A stretch of 64,000 nucleotides of DNA from NCBI RefSeq assembly GCF_900110455.1, contig NZ_FOIS01000002.1, positions 372,001-436,000 of the forward strand, written 5' to 3'. This stretch comes from Natrinema salifodinae. GTDB lineage: Archaea > Halobacteriota > Halobacteria > Halobacteriales > Natrialbaceae. The notes below the pieces were generated by a model. The model made no database searches and was not told the DNA's origin. It was given only the letters and a program-made list of their open reading frames with translations. Made by a program: the position numbers and the translations under genes. This document shows positions 11,737-27,083 of the stretch, piece by piece; within the stretch, counting starts at the first letter, position 1; each line of letters opens with the position of its first letter.

Positions 11737-11807
11737 GCGCGGATGGTCTAGTGGCAGGACCTGAGCCTTCCAAGCTCATGGCCCGGGTTCAAATCCCGGT
11801 CCGCGCA
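11737..11807 (+). tRNA. tRNA-Gly(UCC)
   Basis: The 71 bases fold as a full cloverleaf. The acceptor arms are GCGCGGA and TCCGCGC with discriminator A, the anticodon stem TGAGC/GCTCA closes a CTTCCAA loop (anticodon TCC, 11769-11771), and the T arm contains GGGTTCAAATCCC. CCA is not encoded. It reads GGA and, by wobble, GGG codons. The 3' 48 bases serve as the left attachment site of the integrated element, so the intact gene is kept after integration. Confidence 0.95.
11760..11807 (+). repeat. Left attachment site (attL), 48 bp
   Basis: This segment covers the anticodon stem-loop, T arm and acceptor 3' strand of tRNA-Gly and is identical to 26905-26952. Bases outside the match differ on both sides, which fixes the repeat at 48 bp. 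Confidence 0.93.
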
Positions 11808-11961
11808 TAGTTTCCCGCGCCTCAGCGCGCGAAACAGTAGTTTTCGAGTGTCTGTGGAAACACAGACATATGCCGATTACAACTCATAGCCCGGGTCTCG
11901 AGATTGACCCCGACGCCGTCGTGTGGTTTTCAGATGTATCAGGCTCATTAGAGGTGACAGT

Positions 11962-13056: not shown

Positions 13057-13108
13057 TGGTAATTCTGTAGAAACTGATATAACGTTTCACTTATTAGACG
13101 GTATCTGT

Positions 13109-13492
13109 ATGTCGGGAAAGACAAAGACCGTCGGTCTCAAAATGGATGATGGATCTTACGAAGTGTTGCCAGAGGGAATGGCCGGATCTCGAGAAAACGT
13201 GAGCCAAATAATCTTACCAGCGAGTATCCCATGGGAGTCTGACGTACAATTGTATCCAGCAGAACTTGAATTCGCTGGGAGTGAAGAGCGTGCGATGGGT
13301 GGTGAGACCATTTACGATGCGCGACACATTGGGACTGTTCCAAATACTGGAGACGAATTCTACGTTGAAGCGACGTTCCAAGAATATCCAGCAAATGATT
13401 TTCAGCTTGTTGACGGTGGCGCAACTGGACCGGCGTCTTTTGCGCACTTCGCTCCCGATGATTTGAAATCGTATATGTACGCTGTTCTTTAG
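13109..13492 (+). CDS. Hypothetical element protein
   Basis: The 127-residue acidic protein (MSGKTKTVGLKMDDGSYEV start) appears to be a single beta-rich soluble domain with no motif I recognise. A TATA-like TGATATAAC stretch near 13076-13084 fits leaderless translation from the ATG at 13109, although the frame continues back into the integrase end. The stop overlaps the end of the convergent SRA-HNH gene by four bases. It may be an accessory of the integrase or the nuclease; there is no direct evidence. Confidence 0.55.
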   Translation: MSGKTKTVGLKMDDGSYEVLPEGMAGSRENVSQIILPASIPWESDVQLYPAELEFAGSEERAMGGETIYDARHIGTVPNTGDEFYVEATFQEYPANDFQLVDGGATGPASFAHFAPDDLKSYMYAVL

Positions 13493-14811
13493 AGAAATAT
13501 TAGATTCCGCTGTTCTGCTTTTGCTATTAACTCCTGATTGAATTCATCACCATTACGCCCTTGATGCACCCGTCGATGGCAGTTTGGACACAGTGCGATG
13601 ACGTTCTCTGGTGCATCTGGCCCGCCGTCACTCTGCCGTGTGAGGTGATGGACCTCGAGGAACGGCTCACCGGTGCTAGTTACGAAGGGAGCTTCTTGCT
13701 CACATCCCTGACAGACGCCGTCTGCCATCCGAAGTGCAAACTCACGGACGTACTGTGATCGTGGATAAGAGCGGCCGCCAGAACGGCTTGAGGAAGTGCG
13801 TGATCCTGTTGGCGAGCTCTGTTTTGCTTTCTCGAAAAGCTCCTCATCCGAAAGCGACGTCGGCGTTCCCTCCTCGATTTCAATCTCTGTGCCGCCCACA
13901 GGGGCTAACTGAAACTGGAATGCTTCACGAGGGTCATCATTCTCGTCGCGCAGTGTCCTAGTATCGTACCCGATGTATTCGTATTCACCGAGGTAGGTGA
14001 CAATCCACGGCAGGTCTGTGCTCTCAAAGAGATGAAGGGACTTGCCGTTCTCCTTGTGGTCGCGAATAGCTTCGTTGCCGCCGTCCATCGTCATATCGCC
14101 TTCCGTTCCTTCGCCAGTGTAGAGGAAGGTGTCGTTCTCAAGGAATTTATCTTCGTATCCGTAGTCATCGCCTGAGTCACCGGTAAAGATGAGAACTAGA
14201 GGAAGGTCACTCGGTTTGGCGATTCCTTTGTATCGTTCTCCTTTGAGCGCATCGTGGATGAACCACCGATTATACGCTGCGCCAACTTCGAACGTGCCAC
14301 CTTCAATCGGGATAGAGTAGACACCATTGTCTTCAGTGACCAGCTCGAGCGATTTGAGCCAATCAAGGTGCTTAGTTACGACGCCCTTGGGTAAATTGTG
14401 ATCAGGATAGGCATCACGGAGATATGTTTGTATCTCTTCGACCGTTCGGTAACCGTTCGGAATGATCCTGGCGATCTCCCGGAATCCATCGACAGCCTTC
14501 TCGAGGCCCTCATACATAACCAAGGGCTCGTTATGCCGCCAGAAGGTCTCGCCCTTGTTTGTAGTTTGATAGCCATCTGGAGTACTGTCGAGCAGGTCGA
14601 TGGACTCGAGGAACGAGATATTTCGGCTGACGGTTTCTTCTGCATCAGCGGGTGTAGATGCTCTTGATCCGGCAGATGTATTTTCTAGCAGCCAGTCAAA
14701 AAGTGCTGCTTCAGTCGGTTTTTGTTCTGAGATATACTGGAGGGTCGAATGGAGATCCTGAATCCGATCATCAACCCCACCGAAGAAGCGTTCGGTCGTC
14801 ATCCGGCTCAT
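13489..14811 (-). CDS. Modification-dependent (type IV-like) SRA-HNH endonuclease
   Basis: The 440-residue protein has two helical or winged-helix segments at about 15-170, an SRA-like base-flipping domain at about 180-305, a Ser/Gly linker, and a C-terminal HNH domain. The SRA part shows the ScoMcrA-type pattern (GIAKPSDLPLVLIFTG, GYEDKFLENDTFLYTGEG, GDM, GNEAIRDH, LHLFE, YLGEYEYIG). The HNH domain has C367/C370, H388/H389, N403, C408/C411 and H416. ScoMcrA-like enzymes cut DNA carrying methylated or phosphorothioated bases, so defence against modified DNA is the likely job. AATATACG about 22-29 bp upstream fits a leaderless start. It is divergent from the PD-(D/E)XK-like gene. Confidence 0.85.
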   Translation of the reverse strand: MSRMTTERFFGGVDDRIQDLHSTLQYISEQKPTEAALFDWLLENTSAGSRASTPADAEETVSRNISFLESIDLLDSTPDGYQTTNKGETFWRHNEPLVMYEGLEKAVDGFREIARIIPNGYRTVEEIQTYLRDAYPDHNLPKGVVTKHLDWLKSLELVTEDNGVYSIPIEGGTFEVGAAYNRWFIHDALKGERYKGIAKPSDLPLVLIFTGDSGDDYGYEDKFLENDTFLYTGEGTEGDMTMDGGNEAIRDHKENGKSLHLFESTDLPWIVTYLGEYEYIGYDTRTLRDENDDPREAFQFQLAPVGGTEIEIEEGTPTSLSDEELFEKAKQSSPTGSRTSSSRSGGRSYPRSQYVREFALRMADGVCQGCEQEAPFVTSTGEPFLEVHHLTRQSDGGPDAPENVIALCPNCHRRVHQGRNGDEFNQELIAKAEQRNLIFL

Positions 14812-14911
14812 AGCAGTCTACCTTCATGCCAGACGTATATTCATGTGGAAAATTCTCCAGCGGGATGAGAAAAAGGAAGAGATGACGATTAACTTCTCAC
14901 ATCGAGTGATA

Positions 14912-14920
14912 GTACTTATA
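14912..14920 (+). promoter_or_regulatory. TATA-like box for the PD-(D/E)XK-like gene
   Basis: GTACTTATA at 14912-14920 ends 26 bp before the ATG at 14947. The 135 bp intergenic region also holds the opposite promoter of the SRA-HNH gene, making this a compact divergent promoter. Confidence 0.5.
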
Positions 14921-14946
14921 ACCTCGCGGCAGAGGTCTGAACAATA

Positions 14947-15594
14947 ATGACAGAGGAACAGACGCTGACTGGGAAACTCGTAGAATCTTTTGCTGATGTC
15001 ATCCACGATGTCGATCGTACTATCGGTGAAAATAAGGACTACGGCGCTGGGATCGGACCTCACGACGAGAACGATCAGGTCGATGCTCTGATCGAGGAAG
15101 TCCGCCGTCAAGATAATCTCCCTGGGGATGTATCCACTGCGAAGTCCGACCCATCAGGCGTCACATACCCTGGTACCCAATCCGCCGATTTGGTGATTGA
15201 GGCCCCTGAGTTAACGGAATACTGTGAAGCGAAGCTGTTTCGGTTCATAAAGGCGAACGGTAACCCATCGCCACGAGGCTACAGCAAAGTCTTCAGCCCC
15301 TATCAGTCCCATAGTCCGCGCTCGTTCATTCATGATGTGGACAAGCTAGCTGCCGCCGACATCAGGGCCGCAAAGACACTCTTGGGAATCTATTATAGGC
15401 CTATCAAAGGCGCCGGATCTCATATCACTGGACAGGCTATCGCCAAAAAGTTCGTGTCCGATGTTGAGCAATGGACTGAACACGAGATCAGCCTCGACAC
15501 GGTCGTACCCTTCTCAGGACTCCAGCATGATGTCCACCAACGGGGAGCGATACTCGCTTGGAAACTTGACGATCAGCCTGAGCGTTTTTTCTAG
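14947..15594 (+). CDS. PD-(D/E)XK-like nuclease, putative restriction enzyme
   Basis: The 215-residue protein contains a plausible PD-(D/E)XK active site: Asp81 in QSADLVIE followed on the next strand by E94-A-K96 in YCEAKLFRF. A preceding helix contains a conserved-looking Glu in LVESFADVI. The spacing and the hydrophobic strands fit the restriction-endonuclease fold. No methyltransferase is nearby. It lies between the SRA-HNH and the tandem GIY-YIG genes, which supports a DNA-cleavage or defence role. The assignment rests on motif reading and is less certain than its neighbours. Confidence 0.6.
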   Translation: MTEEQTLTGKLVESFADVIHDVDRTIGENKDYGAGIGPHDENDQVDALIEEVRRQDNLPGDVSTAKSDPSGVTYPGTQSADLVIEAPELTEYCEAKLFRFIKANGNPSPRGYSKVFSPYQSHSPRSFIHDVDKLAAADIRAAKTLLGIYYRPIKGAGSHITGQAIAKKFVSDVEQWTEHEISLDTVVPFSGLQHDVHQRGAILAWKLDDQPERFF

Positions 15595-15676
15595 AGCGTT
15601 CCATTAGATCGCCGTCCTGGTACCGTGACCCCTTAGGGTAACGCTGCTCGTGTCACCTTCAAAGAAGGTAAGAGCG

Positions 15677-16552
15677 ATGGGTGCAGACAAACTGACTATG
15701 CAGCCGTATTATGAGTCCGACTGGTTAGGTTTCGACTGGTCGGACTGGGTCAGCTTCGCCCCTTCTGATGGTTATCTCTCAACGGCTCCAACCGACGAAG
15801 GTCTCTATCGCGTACGTCATCAGCGCACAGAGGGTCTCGAGTACATCGGACAGACTGGTCGAAGCCTTCGGGGACGTCTCCGAGCGCTGTCCGGATGTTA
15901 CAAACCCGAAATGCCGTTCACTGATCCACATGTTGCGGCGCCGTGTCTATGGGCCGTCCGTGAAGAGTACGGACCGGAGTTCGAAGTTTCCTGGATCACC
16001 CCCGATGTGGCCCCAGATCGTTCGCAGCGCTTAGCCATTGAAGAGGCGTTGATTGCGTCATATCGACGCGACACTGGAGAAAGCCCAACAGCGAACTTCG
16101 GTCGAATCATTCCTGGCTATCGACGCTCGAGTAACCGGTCAGGTGGGTTCACTGGGGGTATTCTCGAAGAGGGTGAAAGTGAGCCGAACTGTGAGCCGGG
16201 AACTGGACCGTTGCCATGGACGGATGCCGATGCAATACTCTCAGATTCGTGGATGGGTCTTGACTGGTCGGAACCTGAACGCTTGGCAGATGCGTACCAA
16301 CAGATTCCGAAGGAAAGCGGCCTGTATCGGATCTGGAATGAAGACGACGTCCCACCGTTGGAATACATCGGACAGAGCGGAAACCTCCGAAGTCGGCTGT
16401 ATCGCCACCGTCGAAACAGAGACGGTGATCTATTGTTCAGCTATACGACGCTGTCAGAACTCGACGCAGCCCATAAGCGAAGTGAGGTCGAAACCGAGTT
16501 GATCGGTGCTCACTGGCTTGCTTGTGAGATGGCTCCACGAGACCAGTTCTAA
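15677..16552 (+). CDS. Tandem GIY-YIG nuclease-like protein
   Basis: The 291-residue protein is an internal duplication. Each half starts with a W(L/M)G(F/L)DWS segment and carries a GIY-YIG core: GLYRV at 42-46 with YIGQT at 56-60, and GLYRI at 215-219 with YIGQS at 230-234. The first half keeps an Arg after YIG, Glu122 in the IEEALI helix and a terminal Asn140. The second keeps the Arg and a Glu in SEVETELI but ends without the final Asn motif. GIY-YIG proteins cut DNA in homing, repair and restriction. I used the ATG at 15677 with GAAGGT upstream; a GTG at 15650 is possible. Confidence 0.8.
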   Translation: MGADKLTMQPYYESDWLGFDWSDWVSFAPSDGYLSTAPTDEGLYRVRHQRTEGLEYIGQTGRSLRGRLRALSGCYKPEMPFTDPHVAAPCLWAVREEYGPEFEVSWITPDVAPDRSQRLAIEEALIASYRRDTGESPTANFGRIIPGYRRSSNRSGGFTGGILEEGESEPNCEPGTGPLPWTDADAILSDSWMGLDWSEPERLADAYQQIPKESGLYRIWNEDDVPPLEYIGQSGNLRSRLYRHRRNRDGDLLFSYTTLSELDAAHKRSEVETELIGAHWLACEMAPRDQF

Positions 16553-16602
16553 CTCATGAAATTCACGTAACGATTATCACGTATTAGTTACTCTCACTTA
16601 CT

Positions 16603-17205
16603 ATGGGGTTATTCAGTTCAGGAGATGATGACTTGGGTGATTATGAGTGTGAGCCACAGGGAGAATACGTCACAAAAGCTCGAATTGAGAAGGTAGAAGA
16701 TATCTTAGATGAGGGCGAGAAGATACACTATATAACCCGCGGATCAACCGTCGACGTTGAAGGGTCATCTGCTGGGAAATCATTATTCGGCGACGATAGA
16801 AGTCGCAAGTCTGGCACACGAGGGTACGTACGAGCAGTCTACACTGATAGCCGAGTAGCAGTAAAGATTCCTCAGTGGTTGGGCTCTGATGAGCGGTCTG
16901 TACCGTATGAGAGCATAACTAGTGTTGATCTGGATACTGGACTTGTTAATAAGCGCGTTTCCCTCCAGACGCCTGGGCAAACCTACCATATTGAAGTCCA
17001 AGAGCCAGGTAAAGACGAAGTTCGAGAAATTGTGTCGTTCATCAGGGAGAAGATTAACGAGGTAAATCAACCAGACACAGTCGTGGCAGAGTCAGAACCA
17101 GACCCACTTGATCAGCTGGACAAACTTCAAGAGCTTCATGAGAAGGGTGTCGTAGACGATGAAGAATTTGAAGAAAAGAAACAATCTCTGCTTGATAAGG
17201 TGTAA
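16603..17205 (+). CDS. PH-like and SHOCT domain protein
   Basis: The 200-residue protein has a central bacterial PH-like domain (about 30-145; YVRAVYTDSRVAVKIPQW, SVPYESITSVDLDTGL) and a C-terminal SHOCT motif (DQLDKLQELHEKGVVDDEEFEEKKQSLL). SHOCT segments are short helical pairs attached to many domains, often for oligomerisation. Such proteins are common in archaeal mobile elements, but their function is unknown. Codon use is A+T-rich like the rest of the element. No Shine-Dalgarno is seen and a leaderless start is likely. Confidence 0.7.
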   Translation: MGLFSSGDDDLGDYECEPQGEYVTKARIEKVEDILDEGEKIHYITRGSTVDVEGSSAGKSLFGDDRSRKSGTRGYVRAVYTDSRVAVKIPQWLGSDERSVPYESITSVDLDTGLVNKRVSLQTPGQTYHIEVQEPGKDEVREIVSFIREKINEVNQPDTVVAESEPDPLDQLDKLQELHEKGVVDDEEFEEKKQSLLDKV

Positions 17206-17295
17206 TACGGATTATGTTCAGTTTTCAGATAGAACACATTAAGTAGCTAAACGGTATGGAAGAGTCGACCGGATAACGGTTACACGGCCGGGAAC

Positions 17296-17388
17296 CTACT
17301 CCTCTTCACAGGTGGCCCGTGCCCGCTTGATTTCCAGAAGCTCCAGCTCGATCTGCTCGAGTTCTGCCTCTGTGACTTTCCGCTTCAT
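17296..17388 (-). CDS. Thirty-residue charged helical microprotein
   Basis: The ATG at 17388 overlaps the TGA of the SWIM gene in an ATGA, and the frame runs to a TAG at 17296. The product MKRKVTEAELEQIELELLEI and ten more residues form a single highly charged helix with heptad-like Leu/Ile spacing. Coupling to the SWIM gene suggests a partner or regulator of it. The size makes the call uncertain. Confidence 0.4.
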   Translation of the reverse strand: MKRKVTEAELEQIELELLEIKRARATCEEE

Positions 17389-17789
17389 TCTGGGACCTCC
17401 GGATTCGGTGTGTCGAAGTCAGCGTTAAAGCAAGGGAAGCAAGGGAGCTCTTGGTCAACACTCCAGCACGAACAGTCATCGGGTCGCAGTGGACCGCCAT
17501 CAGTAACTGGTCGCTCTGTCGCCGCAGTGAGGACCGGTTGACGGATCGCGATGGCGACGCGATGCTTACACGGCTCATCATGATGGACGTCGGCCGGGCA
17601 TTCACAGCAGACCGGAATGCCACCCTTGACGTTGACGCGATACTCATGATTTTCCGGGTCAGCGTAGCTGCCGTTTCGTACCGTGACGATCCCAGGAGCG
17701 GTTAACTCGAACTCGAATGCTTCGTATTGTGCGCACTTTACGACTTTGTTATCCGAAACTCCAAGGTGATGGAGTATGTTTTCTGTCAT
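17385..17789 (-). CDS. SWIM zinc-finger protein
   Basis: The 134-residue protein contains the SWIM motif CxCx(n)CxH at VCCECPADVHHDEPCKHRVA, preceded by a short beta-rich segment. A second Cys cluster (CSCWSVDQELPCFPC) follows near the C-terminus. SWIM domains bind zinc and mediate DNA or protein contacts; stand-alone versions are frequent in haloarchaeal plasmids and elements. I chose the ATG at 17789 at the family-like start; the frame is open 40 codons upstream through a hairpin. The next microprotein overlaps its stop by four bases. Confidence 0.75.
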   Translation of the reverse strand: MTENILHHLGVSDNKVVKCAQYEAFEFELTAPGIVTVRNGSYADPENHEYRVNVKGGIPVCCECPADVHHDEPCKHRVAIAIRQPVLTAATERPVTDGGPLRPDDCSCWSVDQELPCFPCFNADFDTPNPEVPE

Positions 17790-17810
17790 GGCTTCTCCCA
17801 GAAAGCCAGT

Positions 17811-17830
17811 CCGGGTGCTGCAACACCCGG
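17811..17830 (-). promoter_or_regulatory. Hairpin in the SWIM-gene leader
   Basis: CCGGGTG-CTGCAA-CACCCGG is a perfect 7+6+7 inverted repeat, 22-41 bp upstream of the SWIM start. It could be an RNA hairpin in a leader or a protein-binding site. Confidence 0.4.
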
Positions 17831-17857
17831 GCATTTTGACTGACTTTCTTAGATAGA

Positions 17858-17872
17858 CATACAATCTGTATG
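17858..17872. promoter_or_regulatory. Inverted repeat in the divergent promoter region
   Basis: CATACA-ATC-TGTATG is a perfect 6+3+6 palindrome between the SWIM gene and the small plus-strand gene at 17910. The half-site ACATACA recurs at 17893-17899, so a regulator could bind several half-sites here. Confidence 0.4.
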
Positions 17873-17909
17873 ACAATAAGTCTAAACATTCTGACATACA
17901 GGCGGACAT

Positions 17910-18065
17910 ATGACCAGCTTTGGTACAGACTCATGGCACCTCATGAACCCTGCGATTGACCCCCTATACAGCGATTATGATGGGGTTGAGGGGATTCAGT
18001 GGCCATTTTCACGATTAAGTAGTATTTTTATGATATTTCTCATCTCGGCCATTATCGGCAAATGA
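17910..18065 (+). CDS. Possible small membrane protein
   Basis: An ATG opens a 51-residue frame (MTSFGTDSWHLMNPAIDPLY start) ending with a hydrophobic segment (SSIFMIFLISAIIGK) that could be one membrane helix. It is divergent from the SWIM gene across a region with palindromes. Its acidic N-terminal half and position support it weakly; there is no family match that I know. Confidence 0.3.
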   Translation: MTSFGTDSWHLMNPAIDPLYSDYDGVEGIQWPFSRLSSIFMIFLISAIIGK

Positions 18066-18306
18066 CTCTCGACAACTGACCAGTCGAATTATCGCACTGA
18101 GGGCTGCATAGCGGTGCTTCAATGTTGGTCTTAGTATTTACTATAAATATTCAGCTACTTGGTTTTCTGTATAATCGGGCCGGTCGAAATCGTTAGTACG
18201 TATTGGCAGGTAGATCTTCATGTAAGTAAGGTGGTGAACATAAGAAAATCGCCAGACAGGATGGAGAACCATTAATTGTGTGTAGATATAATGATATATT
18301 GGACAG
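18066..18306. other. A+T-rich spacer
   Basis: The 241 bp between the small membrane ORF and the 38-residue protein are notably A+T-rich, with several TATA-like runs, including TGATATATTG near 18290-18299 just before the next gene. No supported gene was found. It may hold the promoter of the replication operon. Confidence 0.35.
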
Positions 18307-18309
18307 ATG

Positions 18310-18426
18310 ATGGAAACTACACTCGGCGTCTCGAAGGAGACGCGCAATCGACTGCGGAGGCTGAAAGGCTTCGAACGCACTTACGATGAGCTCCTTCAGG
18401 AGATGCTCGAAGAATACGACGAATGA
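18310..18426 (+). CDS. 38-residue antitoxin-like/ribbon-helix protein
   Basis: The product starts METTLGVSKETRNRLRRLKG and continues with YDELLQEMLEEY. This is the layout of short haloarchaeal VapB-like or DUF7557-type proteins: one beta strand followed by two helices. Such proteins often act as DNA-binding autoregulators. No VapC-type toxin follows. The in-frame ATG at 18307 is an equally possible start. Its stop overlaps the next ATG (18423) in ATGA. A GCGTCTC/GAGACGC hairpin lies inside the coding sequence at 18326-18343. Confidence 0.6.
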   Translation: METTLGVSKETRNRLRRLKGFERTYDELLQEMLEEYDE

Positions 18427-18623
18427 TGCAACTGAAGAAGCACAGTTCCTGGACGTTGGCAAATTGGGCTTGGGACCTCGAGTTGCCGACGCCCAGCGAA
18501 ACGACGCAGTACCGCGAGGACGTGAGTCCTGTGTTTAAGAAAATGGCACACGCCATTGTAAATCTTACACATTGTCTCACCTCCTCGTGGTGTCAACCAC
18601 TACGGAATGACAGAACTCATTAA
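18423..18623 (+). CDS. Doubtful 66-residue ORF
   Basis: The ATG overlaps the stop of the 38-residue gene, and the frame runs to 18623, overlapping the start of the next gene by 17 bases. The sequence (MMQLKKHSSWTLANWAWDLE start) is less acidic than its neighbours and has no motif. Inverted repeats at 18542-18557 (AATGGC/GCCATT) and 18587-18600 (GTGGT/ACCAC) lie inside it, so the DNA may have a structural role instead. Confidence 0.25.
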   Translation: MMQLKKHSSWTLANWAWDLELPTPSETTQYREDVSPVFKKMAHAIVNLTHCLTSSWCQPLRNDRTH

Positions 18624-18828
18624 CATTCAGTTTTATCGGCTCAGCGACATCAACATTAGCGAACTGCCGCCGGAGATGCACCGGTCAGTAGTGAGAGTAG
18701 ACGAATGCGACACGCCAGATTGCAGTGGCAACCCAACCCTGCTTGCGCTCAAAGGGGAACGCTACGGTCTCCACTGTGAGGACTGCCACGACAAAGCCGC
18801 TGAGGAGGCAATCGGGGTAATCCTATGA
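18607..18828 (+). CDS. Small putative zinc-binding protein
   Basis: The 73-residue protein carries two Cys pairs, CDTPDC and HCEDCH, separated by a short beta segment (PTLLALKGERYGL). This is a probable zinc ribbon. Its stop overlaps the next ATG in ATGA, placing it in a coupled chain leading to the primase-helicase gene. That context suggests an accessory role in replication or its control; the family is not recognised. Confidence 0.55.
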   Translation: MTELINIQFYRLSDINISELPPEMHRSVVRVDECDTPDCSGNPTLLALKGERYGLHCEDCHDKAAEEAIGVIL

Positions 18829-18917
18829 AATCAATTACCATCAGTAAGATTCGTGACATCGCAAGTATAGACTCCTATACCCGCGATGTCACGAACATCA
18901 CCAACAGGTGGTTCTGA
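18825..18917 (+). CDS. Possible 30-residue leader ORF before the primase-helicase
   Basis: The frame begins in the ATGA overlap with the preceding gene and its TGA shares a base with the primase ATG (TGATG). Most of it is the large palindrome 18850-18895, so the peptide MKSITISKIRDIASIDSYTR and ten further residues may be a by-product of a DNA signal. Alternatively it serves translational coupling across the structured repeat. Confidence 0.3.
   Translation: MKSITISKIRDIASIDSYTRDVTNITNRWF
18842..18895 (+). repeat. Structured repeat, copy 1 (upstream of primase-helicase)
   Basis: A 21 bp block at 18842-18862 is repeated identically at 22164-22184. Here it forms the left side of a long hairpin: outer arms TTCGTGACATCGC (18850-18862) and GCGATGTCACGAA (18883-18895) are perfect over 13 bp, and inner arms GTATAG/CTATAC (18865-18870 and 18875-18880) enclose an ACTC loop. 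It looks like an origin, iteron or processing site. Confidence 0.8.
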
Positions 18918-21900
18918 TGGCGGCTGCGGCTGATCAATCGTCGCAGTGGCGGCAGTGCCTCGTTGACGCTCTCGAGTTCTTCCATGATCAGATCGATCAG
19001 GAAATCGAAGATCACACAGCTAATGGGGAGCACCCTGACCGACCGACGACCGCTCGAGAATATTTCAAAGAGGCGCGCGGATGGACTGACGAGACGGTCG
19101 AAGCGAAGTTGCTCGGTTGGGCACCTCCGGATCGAAGCGCACTTCGAGATCATCTCGGTCGGCTCGGATATACGCTCGATGAGATGCTGGCGACGGGGTT
19201 ATTCAGTGAGTACGGACATGCGACCTGGCAAGGGCGGTACGTCTTGCCCTACTTCGATGAAGCCGGTGATCCTGTGTATGCTATCGCGCGGTGTACGGGG
19301 TCAAAAGGCGGTGGCAACGCGGGCTATGACGGGCATCCAGCAGACTTTATCCCGGGGAAGTATGCAAAGATGTCCCACACAAAGGACTACGCCGAGGTTG
19401 ACGAACCGATTTACGGCCTCTCAACTCTCAAGCGCGATGGTCCAGTAATCATCACGGAGGGGATCGCCGACGCGATTACGACGCATGAAGCAGGCTATGC
19501 GTGCCTGTCTCCTGTCACGACTCGATTCAAACAGCGTCACCGTGAGTTGCTCCTCGAGAGACTCGAGGGAGACCGTCTGGTGATCGTCATTCAGGACGCT
19601 GAGGTGCCGGGATCGTCGTACGAAGATGAGTTTGGCTTAGACCTCCCACAGTTCGGTCCGGGCATCGAGGGAGCTGTTCAGACTGCTCACTATCTGCATG
19701 AAAACGGAGTCGATGCGCGTCTCGGTGAGCTCCCTCTTCTGGCAGATAGCCTTCAGAAGGTCGACCTCGATGACTACCTCCAGGAGTGGAGTGATACCTT
19801 AGCTCCCATCGTTTCCAGCGCGAAGCCGGCGGCGCAACACCCGGCTCATGATCCGACGACGAGAGAGATCGACGTAGAGCGAACCGAAGTGTCGCCCTCA
19901 GGTGAGGGATCGGCGCTCTGGAACCTGACGATGCCGGACGTCACCGGCCTGAACTGGGGGTATCGCGGCCCCAGTCCGCTGGGTCATCACGGGGATTCAG
20001 AAGATTACTTCCTTCTCTTGGAGAACCGGCAAATCGGCTACGATCACAAGTACGACGCGACGTATCACCCGGTGACCTATCTGCTGTGCAATGCAGGTGT
20101 ACGGCGCCAGAATAATCCTGAGGGGCCTCTCACTGACGAAGAGAAATTTGAATCCTGGCGCTATGCAAAGGCAGAGGGTCTCATCCCATCAGACGACGAG
20201 GTGCCCTATGCTGCTCTCAGAGGCGTCGCCCTCAAGCACGGACTCTGCGAACGCGACGACATCACCGACGGCTGGAAGCTCACACCGTCGGCCTATCTTG
20301 CAGCAATCGAAACGATCGAAAACGAGTACGGTCTCGAATCGGGCCGTAACACGAACGGGGAGCCGGTAGCGCTCATTCCATCGGTCTCGAACGAGTGGGA
20401 CTGGCGAAGCGACGAGCCGTCTATACCCCTTGAGGAAGCCCGGTCTCGGTGCCAAGCAGCGATCGAGGAGGCGCTCATTAATCGATCGACTGCGATCATC
20501 GACGCACTCCCCAGCATGGGGAAGTCTCGAGGCGTAATCAAGGCGGCTGCAGGAACAGGTGAACCGCTCACAATTCTCGTCGGCCGCGGGCACGAAGAGA
20601 TGTACGAACAGTATGAAGAATGGTGCGAAGAAGACGGCCTCAAGTGCAAGCGTCTTCCGAGCTTCACTTCGGACTGCGAAACCGCGAATGGTACACACGG
20701 TGACGCCTGGCGCGATAGAGTCATGGAGCCGTACAGTCGGGGGGCTACAGGGCGCGATATCCACATGCGGATCGAAGATATGCCGTGTAAAGAGGACGGC
20801 TGCACCTACCGATCCCAATGGTCGTTCGATCCCGATGAATACGACGTCCTTATCGGGCACTACACTCACGCTCACGTCTACAAAGCGATTCAGGGGCGAG
20901 CAGTCGCATTCGACGAATTTCCTGGTGGTGCCTTCGAGCTAGACTCGGTGAAAGGGCTGCCAGGAACGGTCTCGACGTATCTTGAAGATTCTCCCCTTCC
21001 AGTCAATGATTTCACTGAATTGATCGAATGCCGGCGTGATCCAGCCCTCCGAGACGAAGCACTTCGACAGTTCGCTTCTCGAGACGGCATAAAAGTCGCG
21101 CCGGATGCCGATCAGGCATTTACACAGGGTGGTCATTCCGCAGCGCCATTCGTCGTTCTCATGCTTATCTTCGGTGAGGAAGTCATGGACGGGTGGGAAG
21201 TAGCAGATATTGAATCGTCACGATGTCTCTGGCACCGGCCTACTCAAACCTTCTACATGCTGACGCCACCAGATCTCTTGCCAGGCCGCGGGGTTATCGG
21301 TCTCGACGGCACACCGACGTCGATCATGTGGAATCTGGCGCTTGATCAGCGGTTCACCCATCGGGAAGTTCTCGACAAAGACGAACGCTCAAAGTATATC
21401 ACTGAGACGATGAGCATCGAACTCGTCAGAACGACAGAGAGCATCAAGCCCTCGGGGAAGGGCGGCCGATACGTGAACGTCGAGGATGACACGGCGCTCT
21501 TCGAGAACATCGCTCAGGAACACGACGAAAAGCCGGCACTCATCGCCCCTCAAGCTGCGTTAAAACGGTACGAGCAGTCCGGCGCGCTTGAGTACATCGA
21601 TGGAACACAGCACTACGGAAACCTGCTCGGATCAAATGAGTTCAAACACCTGCGGGTCGGTGTCGTCTCTGGATCGATGCACTATGGCGACAGATTCATC
21701 GAGAAATGGGCGGCCTACGCCGACGAAGACATCGACAGAGAGGGCAAGGGGGTGAACCTCACCTATGGCGATTTCGGCGATAAGATCCTCACCCACATGC
21801 GCGAACACCAGACACTACAAGCCATGTTCCGATTCGGCCGGGACGGAAACGGCGCTCGGGTCTACATCAATACGAATACCCTTCCCGACTGGATAGAACC

Positions 21901-22156
21901 GCACGACGAAGCGCGCGTCGTCCGCTGTTGGTCAGATGGAGAACGACAAATTCTCGAGGTGATCAACGATCTGGACGAGTGGAAAACGAGTGATTTGATC
22001 GAACACCCTGACATCGAGATCAGCAAACGCCAGATTCACCGAGTGCTGAACAAGCTCACTGAACGAGGATACGTAACAAAGACACGGAAGGGCCGTGCTC
22101 TAGTCTGGCGCGCTGACGGTGACTGCCCGGAACACGGCGATGTCGAATTAGGCTGA
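18917..22156 (+). CDS. TOPRIM primase-helicase replication protein
   Basis: The 1,079-residue protein appears to be the element's replication enzyme. Residues about 45-300 are a DnaG-like primase part with a TOPRIM fold: ITEGIADAI (Glu181) and VIVIQDAE (Asp227). A linker domain follows to about 460. A helicase-like ATPase begins with Walker A LPSMGKSRG (about 531-539) and Walker B AVAFDEF (661-667), with four cysteines between them (KC at 576, SDC at 586, PC at 623, GC at 628) that may bind metal. LDGTP and a motif-VI-like FRFGRDGNGARVYIN follow. The last 65 residues form a winged helix (TSDLIEHPDIEISKRQIHRVL). The ATG at 18917 overlaps the preceding TGA; a GTG at 18908 is possible. Confidence 0.85.
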   Translation: MAAAADQSSQWRQCLVDALEFFHDQIDQEIEDHTANGEHPDRPTTAREYFKEARGWTDETVEAKLLGWAPPDRSALRDHLGRLGYTLDEMLATGLFSEYGHATWQGRYVLPYFDEAGDPVYAIARCTGSKGGGNAGYDGHPADFIPGKYAKMSHTKDYAEVDEPIYGLSTLKRDGPVIITEGIADAITTHEAGYACLSPVTTRFKQRHRELLLERLEGDRLVIVIQDAEVPGSSYEDEFGLDLPQFGPGIEGAVQTAHYLHENGVDARLGELPLLADSLQKVDLDDYLQEWSDTLAPIVSSAKPAAQHPAHDPTTREIDVERTEVSPSGEGSALWNLTMPDVTGLNWGYRGPSPLGHHGDSEDYFLLLENRQIGYDHKYDATYHPVTYLLCNAGVRRQNNPEGPLTDEEKFESWRYAKAEGLIPSDDEVPYAALRGVALKHGLCERDDITDGWKLTPSAYLAAIETIENEYGLESGRNTNGEPVALIPSVSNEWDWRSDEPSIPLEEARSRCQAAIEEALINRSTAIIDALPSMGKSRGVIKAAAGTGEPLTILVGRGHEEMYEQYEEWCEEDGLKCKRLPSFTSDCETANGTHGDAWRDRVMEPYSRGATGRDIHMRIEDMPCKEDGCTYRSQWSFDPDEYDVLIGHYTHAHVYKAIQGRAVAFDEFPGGAFELDSVKGLPGTVSTYLEDSPLPVNDFTELIECRRDPALRDEALRQFASRDGIKVAPDADQAFTQGGHSAAPFVVLMLIFGEEVMDGWEVADIESSRCLWHRPTQTFYMLTPPDLLPGRGVIGLDGTPTSIMWNLALDQRFTHREVLDKDERSKYITETMSIELVRTTESIKPSGKGGRYVNVEDDTALFENIAQEHDEKPALIAPQAALKRYEQSGALEYIDGTQHYGNLLGSNEFKHLRVGVVSGSMHYGDRFIEKWAAYADEDIDREGKGVNLTYGDFGDKILTHMREHQTLQAMFRFGRDGNGARVYINTNTLPDWIEPHDEARVVRCWSDGERQILEVINDLDEWKTSDLIEHPDIEISKRQIHRVLNKLTERGYVTKTRKGRALVWRADGDCPEHGDVELG

Positions 22157-22163
22157 TTGCCAA

Positions 22164-22214
22164 CAGTAAGATTCGTGACATCGCGGGTATTAGACTCTAA
22201 TACTTGGGATGTCA
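22164..22214 (+). repeat. Structured repeat, copy 2 (downstream of primase-helicase)
   Basis: The first 21 bp are identical to copy 1 (18842-18862). The inner hairpin is GTATTAG-ACT-CTAATAC (22187-22203): compared with copy 1 it gained one T on the left and the matching A on the right, so pairing is kept. The outer arm is shorter (TGACATC 22176-22182 with GATGTCA 22208-22214). It begins eight bases after the primase-helicase stop. Confidence 0.75.
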
Positions 22215-22287
22215 TTAATTAATCGAGTAAATTTCTATCTGAACAGCATATGACCCCCACCTCTAAGTCACGTCACCACTGGGTTGA

Positions 22288-22449
22288 AAGTTTGAAATCC
22301 AGAAGACTGCTGAAGACAATGAGGAGTCACAGCTGCTCAACAGCTGGCGTGACGAGGGCAGCGATGTCTACGTTTGCGCTGAGTGCGGCAAGGTGTTCGA
22401 GACGGCTGACAGCCTGAACGGTCATCAGTCGGCTCACAGGGACGACTAG
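22288..22449 (+). pseudogene. C2H2 zinc-finger gene fragment
   Basis: The frame ends with a single C2H2-type finger, VCAECGKVFETADSLNGHQSAH, followed by RDD and a TAG. It is open back to a TGA at 22285-22287, but contains no ATG, GTG or TTG ahead of the finger. It is therefore probably a 5'-truncated relic of a small haloarchaeal zinc-finger gene, unless an unusual start codon is used. Confidence 0.5.
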
Positions 22450-22474
22450 CCTCGATACAGCGCTTGGAAAACAC

Positions 22475-22687
22475 ATGGCGAACAACTGTGGCGCTGTAGA
22501 ATCTCACTCCATCTCTTGTGATGAAGTGTACGAAGCACTTCCGGCCCTGTTCTGCAGAGCTGAGGTAGCTGAACACTTCGAAGCCTGCTATAACACTGTG
22601 AAGAAGCGCATTTGGGTCCTCGAGGAAGAGGGTGACGTCGAGCGCCTAAATGGAACGGACATCTGGCAGCGAAACTCCAAGGGGTAA
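22475..22687 (+). CDS. Small winged-helix regulator
   Basis: The 70-residue protein has a winged-helix pattern: DEVYEALPALFCRAEVAEHF, CYNTVKKRIWVLEEEGDVERLNGTDIWQR. The last part is the typical recognition helix plus wing of small haloarchaeal HTH proteins. It lies in the decayed stretch downstream of the primase-helicase but its own frame is intact. A repressor of element genes is plausible. Confidence 0.55.
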   Translation: MANNCGAVESHSISCDEVYEALPALFCRAEVAEHFEACYNTVKKRIWVLEEEGDVERLNGTDIWQRNSKG

Positions 22688-22761
22688 CGCTGTTAGGACA
22701 GTACCATATTCCTTTCAGTCCCTTTAAATATTTATTGACGTATATACATTACTAGAACTTG

Positions 22762-22881
22762 ATGCTAATGCCCGGTGCAGTGACGTTAAGCACGGCGGTG
22801 TACCTGCAAACAATCTCGAAACGACAGAAACCGCTCCTTGTGCTCCTGCTCATCATGGGAGCGTGGGTGATGCTGATATGA
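22762..22881 (+). CDS. Very small membrane protein
   Basis: A frame of 39 residues (MLMPGAVTLSTAVYL start) ends with KPLLVLLLIMGAWVMLI, one convincing membrane helix. Its TGA overlaps the ATG of the next, frameshifted gene in ATGA. A TATATACATT run about 20 bp before the ATG could be a promoter. Small size keeps confidence moderate. Confidence 0.4.
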   Translation: MLMPGAVTLSTAVYLQTISKRQKPLLVLLLIMGAWVMLI

Positions 22882-23127
22882 GCTACAGCAAAGAGGCAGC
22901 CGACGAAGTCCGTGAGGCTATCCCTGATGGCCCCCTCACCCGGGGGTTGTGGCCAAAAACAAGAGGACCTGTCTCTCCGGCATGTAGCCACCATTCTGGA
23001 CAGCCTAGCGGAAGAGGGGGTACTGAAGCGTAGGAAGGTCGGCCAGACCTGGCTGTATGTTCACAGCCGCAATGGCTGGCCGACTGTCTCCCCCGAATCA
23101 GCTGACGATCGAACCAGAAAATCGTGA
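22878..23127 (+). pseudogene. Frameshifted winged-helix gene
   Basis: The first frame reads MSYSKEAADEVREAIPDGPL then TRG and soon loses sense. The next frame carries on with GQKQEDLSLRHVATILDSLA and GVLKRRKVGQTWLYVHS, the second half of a winged helix. Removing one G from the five-G run at 22942-22946 joins both into one 82-residue small HTH protein. It is therefore a one-base insertion, either a true mutation or a sequencing error in a homopolymer. Confidence 0.6.
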
Positions 23128-23133
23128 AAACAA

Positions 23134-23731
23134 ATGATAACAAAACCAGGAGATGGGTTTAACAATCCGATTCGAGTGACTGGAGAGTGGCGCAGTGAGC
23201 CAGAGGAGAACGGTCACACTGGTGGTCAGTTCCAACGTCGACTCAAGCGGATCACTCAGTGTGTGAGGGTACACGAGCTAAGTTGTGATACCTACGTCTG
23301 CGATTTCGTCGTATTCTGTGACGAGCTGACTGAGCAGATTCGACGACACATCAAGCGGTCAACGCGCTTCGATTAAGACTCAAGGGAAGACATCCAGCGC
23401 TGGGGATCGACGAATGTCAGTGCAGTCATTCACAATGTTCATGATGACGGCTTCCGAGTCGAGGAGTTCGTGATCAGGTTGCCGAGTGCCGATCTACCTC
23501 GAGATGAGACCCCGGATGCTGTAGCTAGCCTGATCGAAAAGGCCGCCGGCCTCGAGCGTCGATGTATGGATTCGACCACCGGTCTCTGCGATGGCAGGAA
23601 GCTTCTGCTCTGGAACAGTGCCAAAGGGATTTGATGATCCGTATCCACACGTGGGTGTCCAGGATGCTTCGATCCATCCGACTGTGTTTCTGGATTTTCT
23701 TTCTGACCTGTGCAGTGACTATGACCTCTGA
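23134..23731 (+). pseudogene. Element gene broken by a stop codon and a frameshift
   Basis: From the ATG at 23134 the frame reads 80 residues to TAA at 23374-23376, then stays open in the same frame with acidic protein-like sequence (DSREDIQRWGSTNVSAVIHN, LPSADLPRDETPDAVASLIE) to 23634. In the +1 frame it continues as DDPYPHVGVQDASIHPTVFL and DFLSDLCSDYDL to the TGA at 23731. An extra G in 23626-23628 explains the shift. The intact ancestor would have encoded about 199 residues. I do not recognise the family. Confidence 0.55.
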
Positions 23732-23733
23732 GA

Positions 23734-24129
23734 TCACGCTACAAAGATGGCGTATCCCATTAATGAACAGCCAGTAATCAATACTGCATAGGTGAACTCG
23801 TTACCATCGTTGAAGCGCCAGCTGTCTACAGAGTCATTCACGTAGATTAACGTAAGGATGAGCGCTAATCCGAGCGCGAATAGGAAAAAGCGTGTATCTG
23901 AAAGAAATCCCAGAACCTCTGTTTTCAGCCAGCCACTGAGGATTGCGGCACTGAGAATGCTTCCAACGATGATCAGATAGGTCTCCTGTTTCGTCTTGAA
24001 ATTACCGCGGAAGATGAAAGCGGTACTCCCCGCTGTGTAGAAGTGATCTTTAATCCACGAAATCACAAATGCGATTAGAAGAATCGCTACCCCTTCCTGT
24101 GCCCATTCTAAAGGTTGCTCGAGCACCAT
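23734..24129 (-). CDS. Four-helix membrane protein
   Basis: The 131-residue protein has four hydrophobic helices, for example GVAILLIAFVISWI, YLIIVGSILSAAILSGWL, FFLFALGLALILTLIYV and FTYAVLITGCSLMGYAIFVA. The ATG at 24129 is chosen because the sequence upstream is not protein-like; the open frame continues 19 codons. The gene is on the same strand as, and downstream of, the TrmB/YwgA-like pair, 86 bp away. Function unknown; membrane proteins of this size occur as effectors in defence cassettes, but nothing specific supports that here. Confidence 0.6.
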   Translation of the reverse strand: MVLEQPLEWAQEGVAILLIAFVISWIKDHFYTAGSTAFIFRGNFKTKQETYLIIVGSILSAAILSGWLKTEVLGFLSDTRFFLFALGLALILTLIYVNDSVDSWRFNDGNEFTYAVLITGCSLMGYAIFVA

Positions 24130-24215
24130 TACTGTTAGAGAATAAATGAGACATGATATACTTGTCGGCCTACTTAACACATACAATAGTGAACGGAATG
24201 AAGCGCTCTGAAACG

Positions 24216-24668
24216 TCAGTAGATGCTGTTTTCAGCGTACTTTGGGTACCGAGAATACACTTCTTCAATAAGATCAGAAAGTTGCTTATCGTTATATTCC
24301 TGTTTGATTTCTTCTGCGAGTGCCAAAATACGTCGGGCCTCATCCTGAGATAGCTGCTGTTCAACAAACTCCTCACCCGCTTGTTGAATTCTATAATCGT
24401 ATTTCGTTTTATCGCGACCGATCTGTTCTTCCTGGTCATCTATCATATCTTCTTCTGCAAGAAAATCAAGATCATCATAGACTTCTTTCGAGAAAGGCCC
24501 ATAATCGTATGCAATAAAGTCATAATTACTAGACTTTAATGGATTGTCATCAATCTCCTGGAAGCGCTGCTGCATCAGAAAGATCATTTTCTGCAAACGA
24601 GTTCGTCCCTCAATTGGCTCTCCACCATCAGCGTACATCAGCGCGAGAGGGAGCAATTTCCTATGCAT
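24216..24668 (-). CDS. YwgA/SocA-like (Panacea-related) domain protein
   Basis: The 150-residue protein has the pattern PIEGRTRLQKMIFLMQQRF, then FIAYDYGPFSKEVYDDLDFL, seen in Bacillus YwgA and more distantly in the SocA/DUF4065 (Panacea) antitoxin domain: an R-x-x-LQK-hhhhh helix followed by a YGPhS motif. Panacea domains neutralise many different toxins and also occur in proteolytic adaptors. The start ATG overlaps the TrmB stop by eight bases, so the two are translationally coupled. No classical toxin is adjacent; the 414-residue divergent protein is a candidate partner by position only. Confidence 0.6.
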   Translation of the reverse strand: MHRKLLPLALMYADGGEPIEGRTRLQKMIFLMQQRFQEIDDNPLKSSNYDFIAYDYGPFSKEVYDDLDFLAEEDMIDDQEEQIGRDKTKYDYRIQQAGEEFVEQQLSQDEARRILALAEEIKQEYNDKQLSDLIEEVYSRYPKYAENSIY

Positions 24669-25425
24669 GGGCGTCGAACTCTTCTGCGTCGTTAAATATC
24701 TCTTCGAACTCCCTCGTGAAAACACTTGCCATCGTTTCATCGCTAAAGATAATCCCTGTGTTCCCACGGTCAATTTCCATGACAACATGCTCCTGATCAA
24801 TAACGTAGAAGGTTTGATCTACATCTTGATGAGTCCAGACAGGGATATTGAATGATGTGAATTCTTTAATTTCCTGCTGTCGTGCATTCCATATGACTGG
24901 CTTAACATCGACCTCACTATCAGCAAGGCGTTCCAAAATACGAAGATCGCTCGTCTCATACCATCGAGGGTCGGGCTCAAGAGCATACACGCTTTCTTCT
25001 GCTTGTTCTAACATTTCCCGGAGTTTTCGAATAGTTCCGGACTGACCACCAAGGACCCAAGACGAGCTCGTAGATTGATCTCTGCTCCGTGGATTGAGCT
25101 CATATGCCGTGCCGAGCGTTTCAATCAGTTCAGTAGCTTTGTTGTTGAACTCCTCCTTCCGTTCTCCGATCAGCTTCTCCGGGTTCTGGACGTCATATAT
25201 TGTTGGATTAGCATCTTGTTCTGTGACAACGCCTTCATTTTTGAGGTCGTCCAGAACGTCATATATTCGTCCTTGGTGAATATCTGTTCTAACAACAATT
25301 TCCCGAGCTTCTAGCGGGCCCTCAGCAACGAGACAGCGGTAGGCTGCTGCCTGATACTTCCCCCACCCCATTATATCTTGAAGCGGTTTATCTGCTTTCT
25401 CGAGGGTCTTCTCCGGACGACTCAT
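24661..25425 (-). CDS. TrmB-family transcriptional regulator
   Basis: The 254-residue protein has an N-terminal TrmB winged helix (about 15-85; QAAAYRCLVAEGPLEAREIV, GRIYDVLDDLKNEGVV), a coiled segment and a C-terminal PLD-like ligand or dimerisation region (VYALEPDPRWYETSDLRILE, TFYVIDQEHVVMEIDRG). TrmB regulators in archaea sense sugars or other small molecules, often controlling an adjacent operon. I chose the ATG at 25425 (MSRPEKTLEKADKPL) because the 33 codons upstream run through the divergent promoter. It is divergent from the 414-residue gene, with a palindrome at 25426-25444 next to its start. Confidence 0.8.
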   Translation of the reverse strand: MSRPEKTLEKADKPLQDIMGWGKYQAAAYRCLVAEGPLEAREIVVRTDIHQGRIYDVLDDLKNEGVVTEQDANPTIYDVQNPEKLIGERKEEFNNKATELIETLGTAYELNPRSRDQSTSSSWVLGGQSGTIRKLREMLEQAEESVYALEPDPRWYETSDLRILERLADSEVDVKPVIWNARQQEIKEFTSFNIPVWTHQDVDQTFYVIDQEHVVMEIDRGNTGIIFSDETMASVFTREFEEIFNDAEEFDAHA

Positions 25426-25444
25426 AACAACCACTATAGTTGTT
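25426..25444. promoter_or_regulatory. Palindrome at the trmB-like start, candidate operator
   Basis: AACAAC (25426-25431) and GTTGTT (25439-25444) form a perfect inverted repeat with a seven-base spacer. Inside it lies the eight-base palindrome ACTATAGT (25433-25440). The site directly abuts the ATG at 25425, so binding there would block expression of the regulator, as in autoregulation. Confidence 0.45.
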
Positions 25445-25505
25445 TTTCTAATAAACTTTATTCTTCGTAGTCTAAGAAACTCACACTTGGGTGGTTCAAT
25501 CTCAC

Positions 25506-25512
25506 TTATATA
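25506..25512 (+). promoter_or_regulatory. TATA box of the 414-residue gene
   Basis: TTATATA ends 24 bp before the ATG at 25537. No Shine-Dalgarno is present, so a leaderless transcript is expected. The site is within the 111 bp divergent region shared with the TrmB gene. Confidence 0.6.
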
Positions 25513-25536
25513 CCCCCAGCGCACGTATCATATACC

Positions 25537-26781
25537 ATGAGTTCCACACCAGAAACGAACTCTGACGACGACGACCAGAACGACGAACGACTCATCAACG
25601 CGCTTTCCACGCGCGAAATCCGACGAGGGCTTCTCGACTCGGATATCGACGTGGGCGAGAACGCGGACCGCGAAGAGGTGTTCAATCTCCTCGAGACACA
25701 CCCTGCGGCAGACCAACTCCGAGAGGACATCGTCGAGGGGGCGAAAAAGCGCATCCTGGAAGATGGGCATGTCAAGCATGACTCCATCGAAGGGACTGGT
25801 CAGGGAATTCCGGTCATCAGCGACGCTCTCACTCTGGCCGAGGTGTACTACTACGACTCGTACTTCCAGTACACTGACCACACTGCGCGTGTATACGAAG
25901 CACCTGACTTCGGTGGCGTTCTCCGGGACATCGCCGAAGACGCGGACTCACCTGCAGCAGCCCGAAACCTGTTCATGGAGTTCTGTGAATCGGAGGACGT
26001 CGACCCTGCATACATCGAAGCGACTGAAGATGTTCCGGCTCCGCTCATCGATAACACCGACGACCAATTCAGCCCCCGTCTCGTGAAGTTCGAGGACGCC
26101 AACACCATCTACCTCGAGTACTGGAAGCGCGGAAAGACGATGAGCGAGTTCGACGTTCGGACCGGCGACTACGAGAAAATCAAGACGCTCTACCGCGCGG
26201 TCGTTCGTGTCAACCTCGACACTGGACTCATCGAGACGATGGGTGACAACAGCCAACAATCCAATGAACAGTTGGTCAAACGGTTCCTCGGTGAGTTCAG
26301 TGGCTCCGACACTGTGCGCCGAATCAACATCCGAGGTCCGGACATCCGGCGGACGAAAAGTGACCTCGCACTCCTCACGAGCCTCAACGAGTTCGTGGGT
26401 GAAGAGGCGAAGGTTCGGCTGACTCGCAATCAGAGTGGAAACGTCGAGGCTGACCCGGCTCACGACCAAATGGAAAGCGAGCGCGACTACTCAAAGACCA
26501 ACTTCCAGATTTTCATCGGAGAGACGGCCGATGGCTGGGAACTGGTCTACCCGAGAGAGCTCGGAGAAGAACCGGACAGCGAGGATGAGGTCACAACGAG
26601 TGACGTTCTCACGGCAATCGATGAGTCATCCCGAATCGACTACGAGGACGTGAAGGACCTCACTATCACTCTCGACGGTGAGAAGTCGACGTACCGAATC
26701 CAGAAGAAGGACCTCGCCCCGAGCACCAGGGAACAGGTCTTCGACCTCCTCGCTGAGGAACTGGGCTGGATTTCGGACTAA
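25537..26781 (+). CDS. Unknown 414-residue acidic protein, divergent from the TrmB regulator
   Basis: I do not recognise this protein. It has a disordered acidic N-terminus (TNSDDDDQNDERLINAL), a helical region to about 200, a central part with charged beta segments (TIYLEYWKRGKTMSEFDVRT, VNLDTGLIETMG), a segment rich in Arg and Thr (IRRTKSDLALLTSLNEF) and a C-terminal domain (FQIFIGETADGWELVYPREL). It has no membrane segment, signal peptide or obvious catalytic motif. Its codon use is richer in G+C than the neighbouring element genes. It is the last gene before the right attachment site and is probably controlled by the divergent TrmB regulator, making it likely cargo of the element. Confidence 0.75.
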   Translation: MSSTPETNSDDDDQNDERLINALSTREIRRGLLDSDIDVGENADREEVFNLLETHPAADQLREDIVEGAKKRILEDGHVKHDSIEGTGQGIPVISDALTLAEVYYYDSYFQYTDHTARVYEAPDFGGVLRDIAEDADSPAAARNLFMEFCESEDVDPAYIEATEDVPAPLIDNTDDQFSPRLVKFEDANTIYLEYWKRGKTMSEFDVRTGDYEKIKTLYRAVVRVNLDTGLIETMGDNSQQSNEQLVKRFLGEFSGSDTVRRINIRGPDIRRTKSDLALLTSLNEFVGEEAKVRLTRNQSGNVEADPAHDQMESERDYSKTNFQIFIGETADGWELVYPRELGEEPDSEDEVTTSDVLTAIDESSRIDYEDVKDLTITLDGEKSTYRIQKKDLAPSTREQVFDLLAEELGWISD

Positions 26782-26883
26782 GATGCGATAAGCCAGGGGC
26801 TCACAGTGCGGATTTTTATATCGTAGGATACACTGTACATAGGTACAGACACTCGGAACTCGCGCTTGGTACGATGGTACTCC

Positions 26884-26902
26884 GCGAAATCTCCGATTTC
26901 GC
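26884..26902. repeat. Short palindrome beside attR
   Basis: GCGAAATC-TCC-GATTTCGC is a perfect 8+3+8 inverted repeat ending two bases before the 48 bp attachment repeat. Its three-base loop design resembles the palindromes inside purK at 61.2 kb, although the sequences differ. Confidence 0.6.
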
Positions 26903-26904
26903 AC

Positions 26905-26952
26905 CCTGAGCCTTCCAAGCTCATGGCCCGGGTTCAAATCCCGGTCCGCGCA
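26905..26952 (+). repeat. Right attachment site (attR), 48 bp tRNA-Gly copy
   Basis: The segment is identical to 11760-11807. It lacks the 5' third of the tRNA (acceptor 5' strand and D arm), so it is not a functional tRNA gene but the second half-site left by integration. Confidence 0.93.
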
Positions 26953-27060
26953 CTTTTCGACGAACGGACGTGAAGAGACCGTACGTGATAGAGGGATTTG
27001 AAACACGCGAGCCGCAGCGTCCGAACGAAGTGACGAAGTGAGGGCGACCGTCTCGCAGTC

Positions 27061-27083
27061 GGGTTCAAATCCCGGTCCGCGCA
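27061..27083 (+). repeat. Older tRNA-Gly 3' fragment
   Basis: The 23 bases are identical to the T arm and acceptor end of the tRNA (11785-11807), but sequence further 5' does not match. It is best read as the remains of an earlier attachment site, 131 bp beyond attR. Confidence 0.75.

Follow-up and report, generated by a model that had tools for sequence, protein, structure and literature searches.

An integrated element with a primase-helicase gene

The window (the entire 64-kb stretch of DNA that was analysed) contains an integrated element in which a gene for a large replication protein (rep) lies between two copies of an imperfect palindrome, referred to here as hairpin copies 1 and 2. 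The features are as follows.

11760–26952: integrated element, ~15.1 kb, carrying both hairpins; GC ~50% versus ~66% in the adjoining chromosome
11923–13056, + strand: tyrosine recombinase (integrase), adjoining the tRNA gene (PF00589, E 9e-18)
18607–18828, + strand: 73-aa ORF with C..C / C..C-type motifs, just 5′ of copy 1 and rep; stop codon overlapping the following ATG (ATGA)
18825–18917, + strand: 30-aa ORF (MKSITISKIRDIASIDSYTRDVTNITNRWF) that holds copy 1 and ends in a TGATG overlap with a rep ATG
18849–18896, − strand: hairpin copy 1, upstream of rep; polarity opposite to that of the family, judged from R2 model scores and the fold
18908–22156, + strand: rep, 1,082 aa; DnaG_N/TOPRIM-like primase (residues ~47–226), XPD/DinG-like SF2 helicase (~495–1000) and winged helix (~1009–1069)
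22157–22219, + strand: former coding tail (LPTVRFVTSRVLDSNTWDVIN) after the rep TGA, similar to the tail that plasmid homologs translate from their hairpin (...YTWEFTN)
22171–22219, + strand: hairpin copy 2, putative origin, 15 nt past the rep stop; canonical place and polarity, judged from R1 and R2 model scores and the position in homologs

The 48-bp direct repeats that form the att sites are at 11760–11807, inside a tRNA-Gly gene (11737–11807), and at 26905–26952, and these repeats, together with the tyrosine recombinase beside the tRNA and the low GC content, identify the island as a plasmid-like element of 15.1 kb that has integrated here. The rep gene is thus in an intact element inserted in tRNA-Gly, which has the defining features of tRNA-integrated plasmids, an integrase plus att repeats in a tRNA gene. 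There is a third, partial att copy of 24 bp just outside the element (27060–27083), which suggests a trace of an earlier integration at the same tRNA-Gly. The integrase is 59% identical to that of a hairpin-bearing element in another genome (G043), and a GIY-YIG domain protein (15650–16552) is 48% identical to a protein of the G043 element that is also beside a hairpin copy (L169). Other genes of the element include those for an HNH nuclease protein (13489–14811) and a SocA/Panacea-type antitoxin domain protein (24216–24800), which are possible cargo or addiction genes.

The Rep domains were assigned from Pfam, NCBIfam and PHROGs, with DnaG also recognized by a PDB sequence profile, and the AlphaFold model (mean pLDDT 87.5) matches XPD and DinG structures in the PDB by Foldseek (best E 1.6e-11). 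The family profile match continues past the rep TGA, and it is the frame beyond this stop codon that reads LPTVRFVTSRVLDSNTWDVIN. The 73-aa ORF before rep has no significant similarity to its positional counterpart upstream of rep in the plasmid phalar02.

Two hairpins flanking rep

A preliminary description of this DNA reported that an identical 21-bp block opens both copies, and this is confirmed, with CAGTAAGATTCGTGACATCGC present at 18842–18862 and 22164–22184. Apart from the att repeats, the 64 kb contain just two repeats of at least 20 bp, of which this is one, and by our own estimate the chance expectation for such a repeat pair is ~5e-4. The block opens an imperfect palindrome at each place (18849–18896 and 22171–22219), and copy 1 is the top-scoring palindrome of the window by a simple palindrome score (16, versus 12.5 for the runner-up). 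The predicted fold of copy 1 has an energy of −28.7 kcal/mol on the + strand (z −9.4) and −42.6 kcal/mol on the − strand, and that of copy 2 is −29.9 kcal/mol on the + strand (z −6.0). The Rfam scan gave tRNA-Gly as its sole match, with no other family above its gathering score; copy 1 scores 27.9 bits against an Rfam miRNA family, which is at chance level for a cut-off of 100.

The inner stem is GTATAG/CTATAC in copy 1 and GTATTAG/CTAATAC in copy 2, in keeping with the initial proposal that one base was added on both sides and the pairing kept. However, while each inner arm is longer by one base, the loop is shortened from ACTC (4 nt) to ACT (3 nt), giving a net increase in length of one, and the 3′ arm of copy 2 has further differences without compensation. 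Inner and outer stems are separated by a 2×2 non-Watson-Crick step, which is AA/CC in copy 1 and GG/TT in copy 2. Model R2, which was built without the window sequences, gives copy 1 a higher score on the − strand (42.6 bits) than on the + strand (35.4 bits), and scores copy 2 at 35.1 bits on the + strand, the family orientation; with model R1, copy 2 has 46.4 bits on the + strand versus 25.2 on the − strand. The two copies are thus direct repeats by their 5′ block and inverted by the polarity of the mismatch step.

The matched insertion was originally taken as direct evidence that the structure is under selection. Two copies alone are not proof of this, since template switching in quasi-palindromes makes arms match without selection and could have made the insertions; dozens of homologs do nonetheless support it, through covariation and through linkage to rep. 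The statement that the copies bracket exactly one gene is correct for rep, which is the sole gene between them, but the end of the 30-aa ORF is also included. There is no transposase between copies 1 and 2.

Conservation of the hairpin and its association with rep

Rep homologs are present in 82 of 293 genomes in an order-wide sample, or about a quarter, and are also encoded on small circular plasmids including those of Halomarina (10.8 kb) and Halorientalis litorea (8.9 kb), phalar02 of DL31 (23.7 kb), and others. A palindrome scoring at least 10 is present 10–90 nt past the winged-helix match at 45 of 80 distinct rep loci, compared with six of 462 random control windows drawn from the same loci, and at a stricter score of at least 12 the numbers are 33 of 80 and 0 of 462. 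A few of the 45 best palindromes by this simple score are GC-rich chance matches (L050, L089 and L093), and the covariance model finds the expected site at these loci. A search for the hairpin beside homologous primase-helicases had been suggested as a check, and by palindrome score or covariance model it is found in 43 of 51 closer homologs, with eight in which neither method detects it. The helicase–winged-helix module and the hairpin stay constant, and the N-terminal domain of Rep varies.

Random scatter of such repeats would have spoken against a role linked to rep and is not seen: the model has only three matches in the 4.27-Mb genome containing the window (G000, contig C2), all beside rep genes, these being the two copies in the window and a weaker site at a second rep on contig C3. 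This second rep is a distant homolog in a 1,574-aa open frame, accompanied by a weak member of the same hairpin family (G000:C3:873208–874272; L081). Most of the matches across the 293 genomes coincide with rep loci, with exceptions in G054, G244, G186, G075 and G127. In G127 the hairpin is directly behind a gene ending in a winged helix, and in G186 it directly follows a 599-aa gene at whose end there is only a helix-type match below threshold. No rep was found near the hairpins at L164 (5668), L165 (2451) and L167 (6467); that of L167 is ~200 nt from a tRNA-Ile gene, and is possibly the remnant of a lost element.

Most homologs have a single hairpin, either 3′ of rep or within its coding tail, and small circular plasmids of 9–11 kb have rep plus one hairpin. 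Some elements contain two or three copies (e.g. two in L087, L088 and L075). Extra copies are present in G043 and G125, whose elements are both integrated in tRNA genes (46–47-bp repeats), and in both of these an extra copy upstream of rep adjoins a TATA-like sequence. In L061, a hairpin of inverted polarity (8391–8438) is within rep, between the primase and helicase coding regions.

These arrangements bear on whether the hairpin is a site for recombination, serving in dimer resolution, as an integrase site, or as the ends of a 3.3-kb mobile unit. Such a role would fit an interrupted palindrome with an asymmetric core, the bracketing of rep by two copies, and the small integrases annotated in several plasmids. 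However, the att sites of the element are the 48-bp tRNA repeats, L036 and L039 have a separate inverted repeat adjoining the integrase, and most homologs have one hairpin. Moreover, a search for the 3.3-kb unit elsewhere in the genome found no second location, with two strong hairpin copies only and no transposase. A recombination site is therefore quite improbable; there is no positive evidence for resolution, and the suggestion that the copies are the ends of a mobile unit is not supported, as what moves is the whole 15.1-kb element in the tRNA gene, which has an integrase and att sites of its own. The inverted repeat in L036 (10424–10460) and L039 (8480–8516), GCGAACGTCGGGGTTT-gtagt-AAACTACGACGTTCGC, is identical in the two and is possibly the recombination site of the adjoining small integrase.

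The multiple copies per element and the few matches without rep suggest a wider use for the hairpin, such as regulation. The palindromes could be operators only, with Rep or another winged-helix regulator controlling the operons of the element and the origin located elsewhere. In L053 and L054, copies close to a TATA-like sequence precede the rep operon, some copies are far from rep, there are several in the G043 element, and one orphan copy (L168) directly follows a gene for a short winged-helix protein. However, the 3′ end or coding tail of rep, where most plasmids have their only copy, is an unusual place for an operator, and the conserved 2×2 mismatch is not expected of a plain dimer operator; we regard an exclusively regulatory function as rather unlikely.

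In an alignment of 27 hairpin copies, 91.5% of the stem cells are paired and both-sided changes are found at 14 of 17 stem pairs. The covariation is 0.463, compared with 0.140 in shuffled alignments, a comparison that is inflated by the relatedness of the sequences, and with at most 0.093 when the pairing partners are slid, a control that preserves relatedness. Although left out of the scoring, the sixth and seventh positions from the loop form Watson-Crick pairs in just 10 of 90 cells, and the break in the palindrome is therefore itself kept in the family. This argues against the matched insertion being purely a functionless by-product of template switching. Copy 1 is nearly perfect, as such a process would predict, but template switching would erase the 2×2 mismatch that most homologs keep, and it leaves the fixed position relative to rep unexplained; we consider it extremely improbable.

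A large subfamily has the hairpin inside the rep frame, ~140 nt short of the stop codon, where its translation gives tails such as VRQLARSSIYTWEFTN or SAELARSSTYTWQFRT; the window and several relatives have a stop codon ahead of the hairpin. Amino acids encoded by the two arms change jointly (VR with TN, SA with RT, and VA with RN), which is what constraint acting on the nucleic acid would produce, and the GC3 of the hairpin arms is 0.58 versus 0.81 for the body of rep (29 loci scored as coding, most with the hairpin in frame). The dyad in the coding-tail loci thus appears, from these sequence comparisons, to be under constraint at the level of DNA. The location inside the rep coding tail in many plasmids also indicates that the hairpin is neither a transposon end nor, in these coding-tail cases, a terminator.

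Non-Watson-Crick stem cells on the rep-sense strand include 21 G-T and seven A-C, counted among related rather than independent sequences, and the excess of G-T hints at folding of the sense strand. This and the very stable predicted folds would be consistent with an RNA element, in which a 3′ hairpin of the rep mRNA (and, for copy 1, a hairpin in its leader) controls stability, termination or translation. However, the G-T excess comes from related sequences with a coding bias on the same strand, termination ~140 nt before the stop codon would truncate rep in many plasmids, and copies are present in both orientations. Archaeal termination also relies chiefly on U-tracts, and an RNA function is improbable.

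A candidate replication origin

Two archaeal systems provide experimental precedents for a hairpin behind rep. In the Sulfolobus plasmid pRN1, replication requires a stem-loop downstream of the primase-helicase gene, and this stem-loop still functions after relocation (PMC4234260). In SNJ2, the Rep has a MarR-like winged helix and its gene is followed by a hairpin that is essential for replication; changes that break the stem abolish replication and a structure-preserving change does not (PMC13107129).

The pRN1 plasmid resembles the present family in having a single multifunctional primase-helicase-winged-helix Rep, and a stem-loop downstream of rep, a single-copy cis element, whose structure is kept while its sequence diverges (PMC4234260); the same conservation of structure over sequence, 3′ of a rep of this composition, is seen here. 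The differences are that pRN1 Rep combines an archaeo-eukaryotic prim-pol with an SF3 helicase, a pairing that Rep here lacks, having instead a DnaG-like or other N-terminal module and an XPD/DinG-like SF2 helicase, and that the pRN1 stem-loop is ~100 nt and noncoding whereas the hairpin here is ~48 nt and often within a coding tail. The SNJ2/betapleolipovirus system shares the haloarchaeal integrative setting, the MarR-like winged helix of Rep and the hairpin downstream of rep (PMC13107129). However, SNJ2 Rep-Arvir is a rolling-circle endonuclease (DUF7845), and Rep here has no match to this catalytic domain in Pfam scans; the SNJ2 hairpin is also shorter, at 22 nt versus ~48 nt, and is accompanied by a separate inverted repeat upstream. 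Phage P4, whose helicase is of the SF3 type, has repeats at its origin, whereas here there is one palindrome and an SF2 helicase. The P4 alpha protein is nonetheless similar in that TOPRIM primase, helicase and winged-helix origin binding are in one protein (PMC4234260). The ssiA and ssiB sites of RSF1010 are likewise hairpins used by a plasmid-encoded primase, but the origin of RSF1010 is a separate one with iterons and the system has three proteins (PMC4234260), and iterons are not seen here.

The constant helicase–winged-helix–hairpin module, the single hairpin of each small plasmid and the tested precedents of pRN1 and SNJ2 together lead us to infer that the hairpin is a cis-acting replication site, and most likely the origin recognized by its own Rep, in a family of haloarchaeal plasmids; we put the probability at roughly 0.6. 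A replication origin was among three functions suggested in the preliminary description, and of these it is the best supported. With the element circular after excision, the C-terminal winged helix of Rep would bind copy 2, the palindrome at the 3′ end of rep, and the XPD/DinG-like helicase would open the DNA there, possibly aided by extrusion of a cruciform or hairpin with the conserved 2×2 bulge. The first primer, for extension by host polymerases, would be made by the primase domain or, in relatives, by a different N-terminal module. Copy 1, which is immediately ahead of the rep start within the rep operon, would be an additional Rep site and most likely arose by duplication of copy 2, as the 21 bp common to the two include 8 nt beyond the stem. 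It is probably an operator or a handcuffing site that keeps rep expression and copy number in check, although its origin as a duplicate providing Rep with another site in its own operon is speculative. The GC skew of the small plasmids places no origin clearly, and the inverted hairpin within rep of L061 and the eight closer homologs with none detected also count against the origin reading.

More broadly, and at somewhat less than even odds, there may be a widespread class of haloarchaeal replicons with a 48-nt palindromic origin in or just after the last codons of the initiator, recognized by a fixed XPD/DinG-like helicase–winged-helix module to which different N-terminal (primase) domains are swapped, such that the tail of Rep is largely dictated by the origin. 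How most haloarchaeal plasmids replicate is not understood, and the hairpin offers a small and precise origin candidate, extends the hairpin-behind-rep principle of pRN1 and SNJ2 to a third type of Rep, and provides a case of a putative origin overlapping the coding sequence of its own initiator. The hairpin together with rep could yield small shuttle vectors. We note that the hairpin may have been described earlier outside of the open-access literature.

A different candidate origin, TAACCAAC-N24-GTTGGTTA, was rejected, as it occurs in several related plasmids and is absent from the window element and others. It is an interrupted palindrome (N23–25) of near-constant spacing, with one to three copies per plasmid in L035, L039, L049, L050, L083 and L085.
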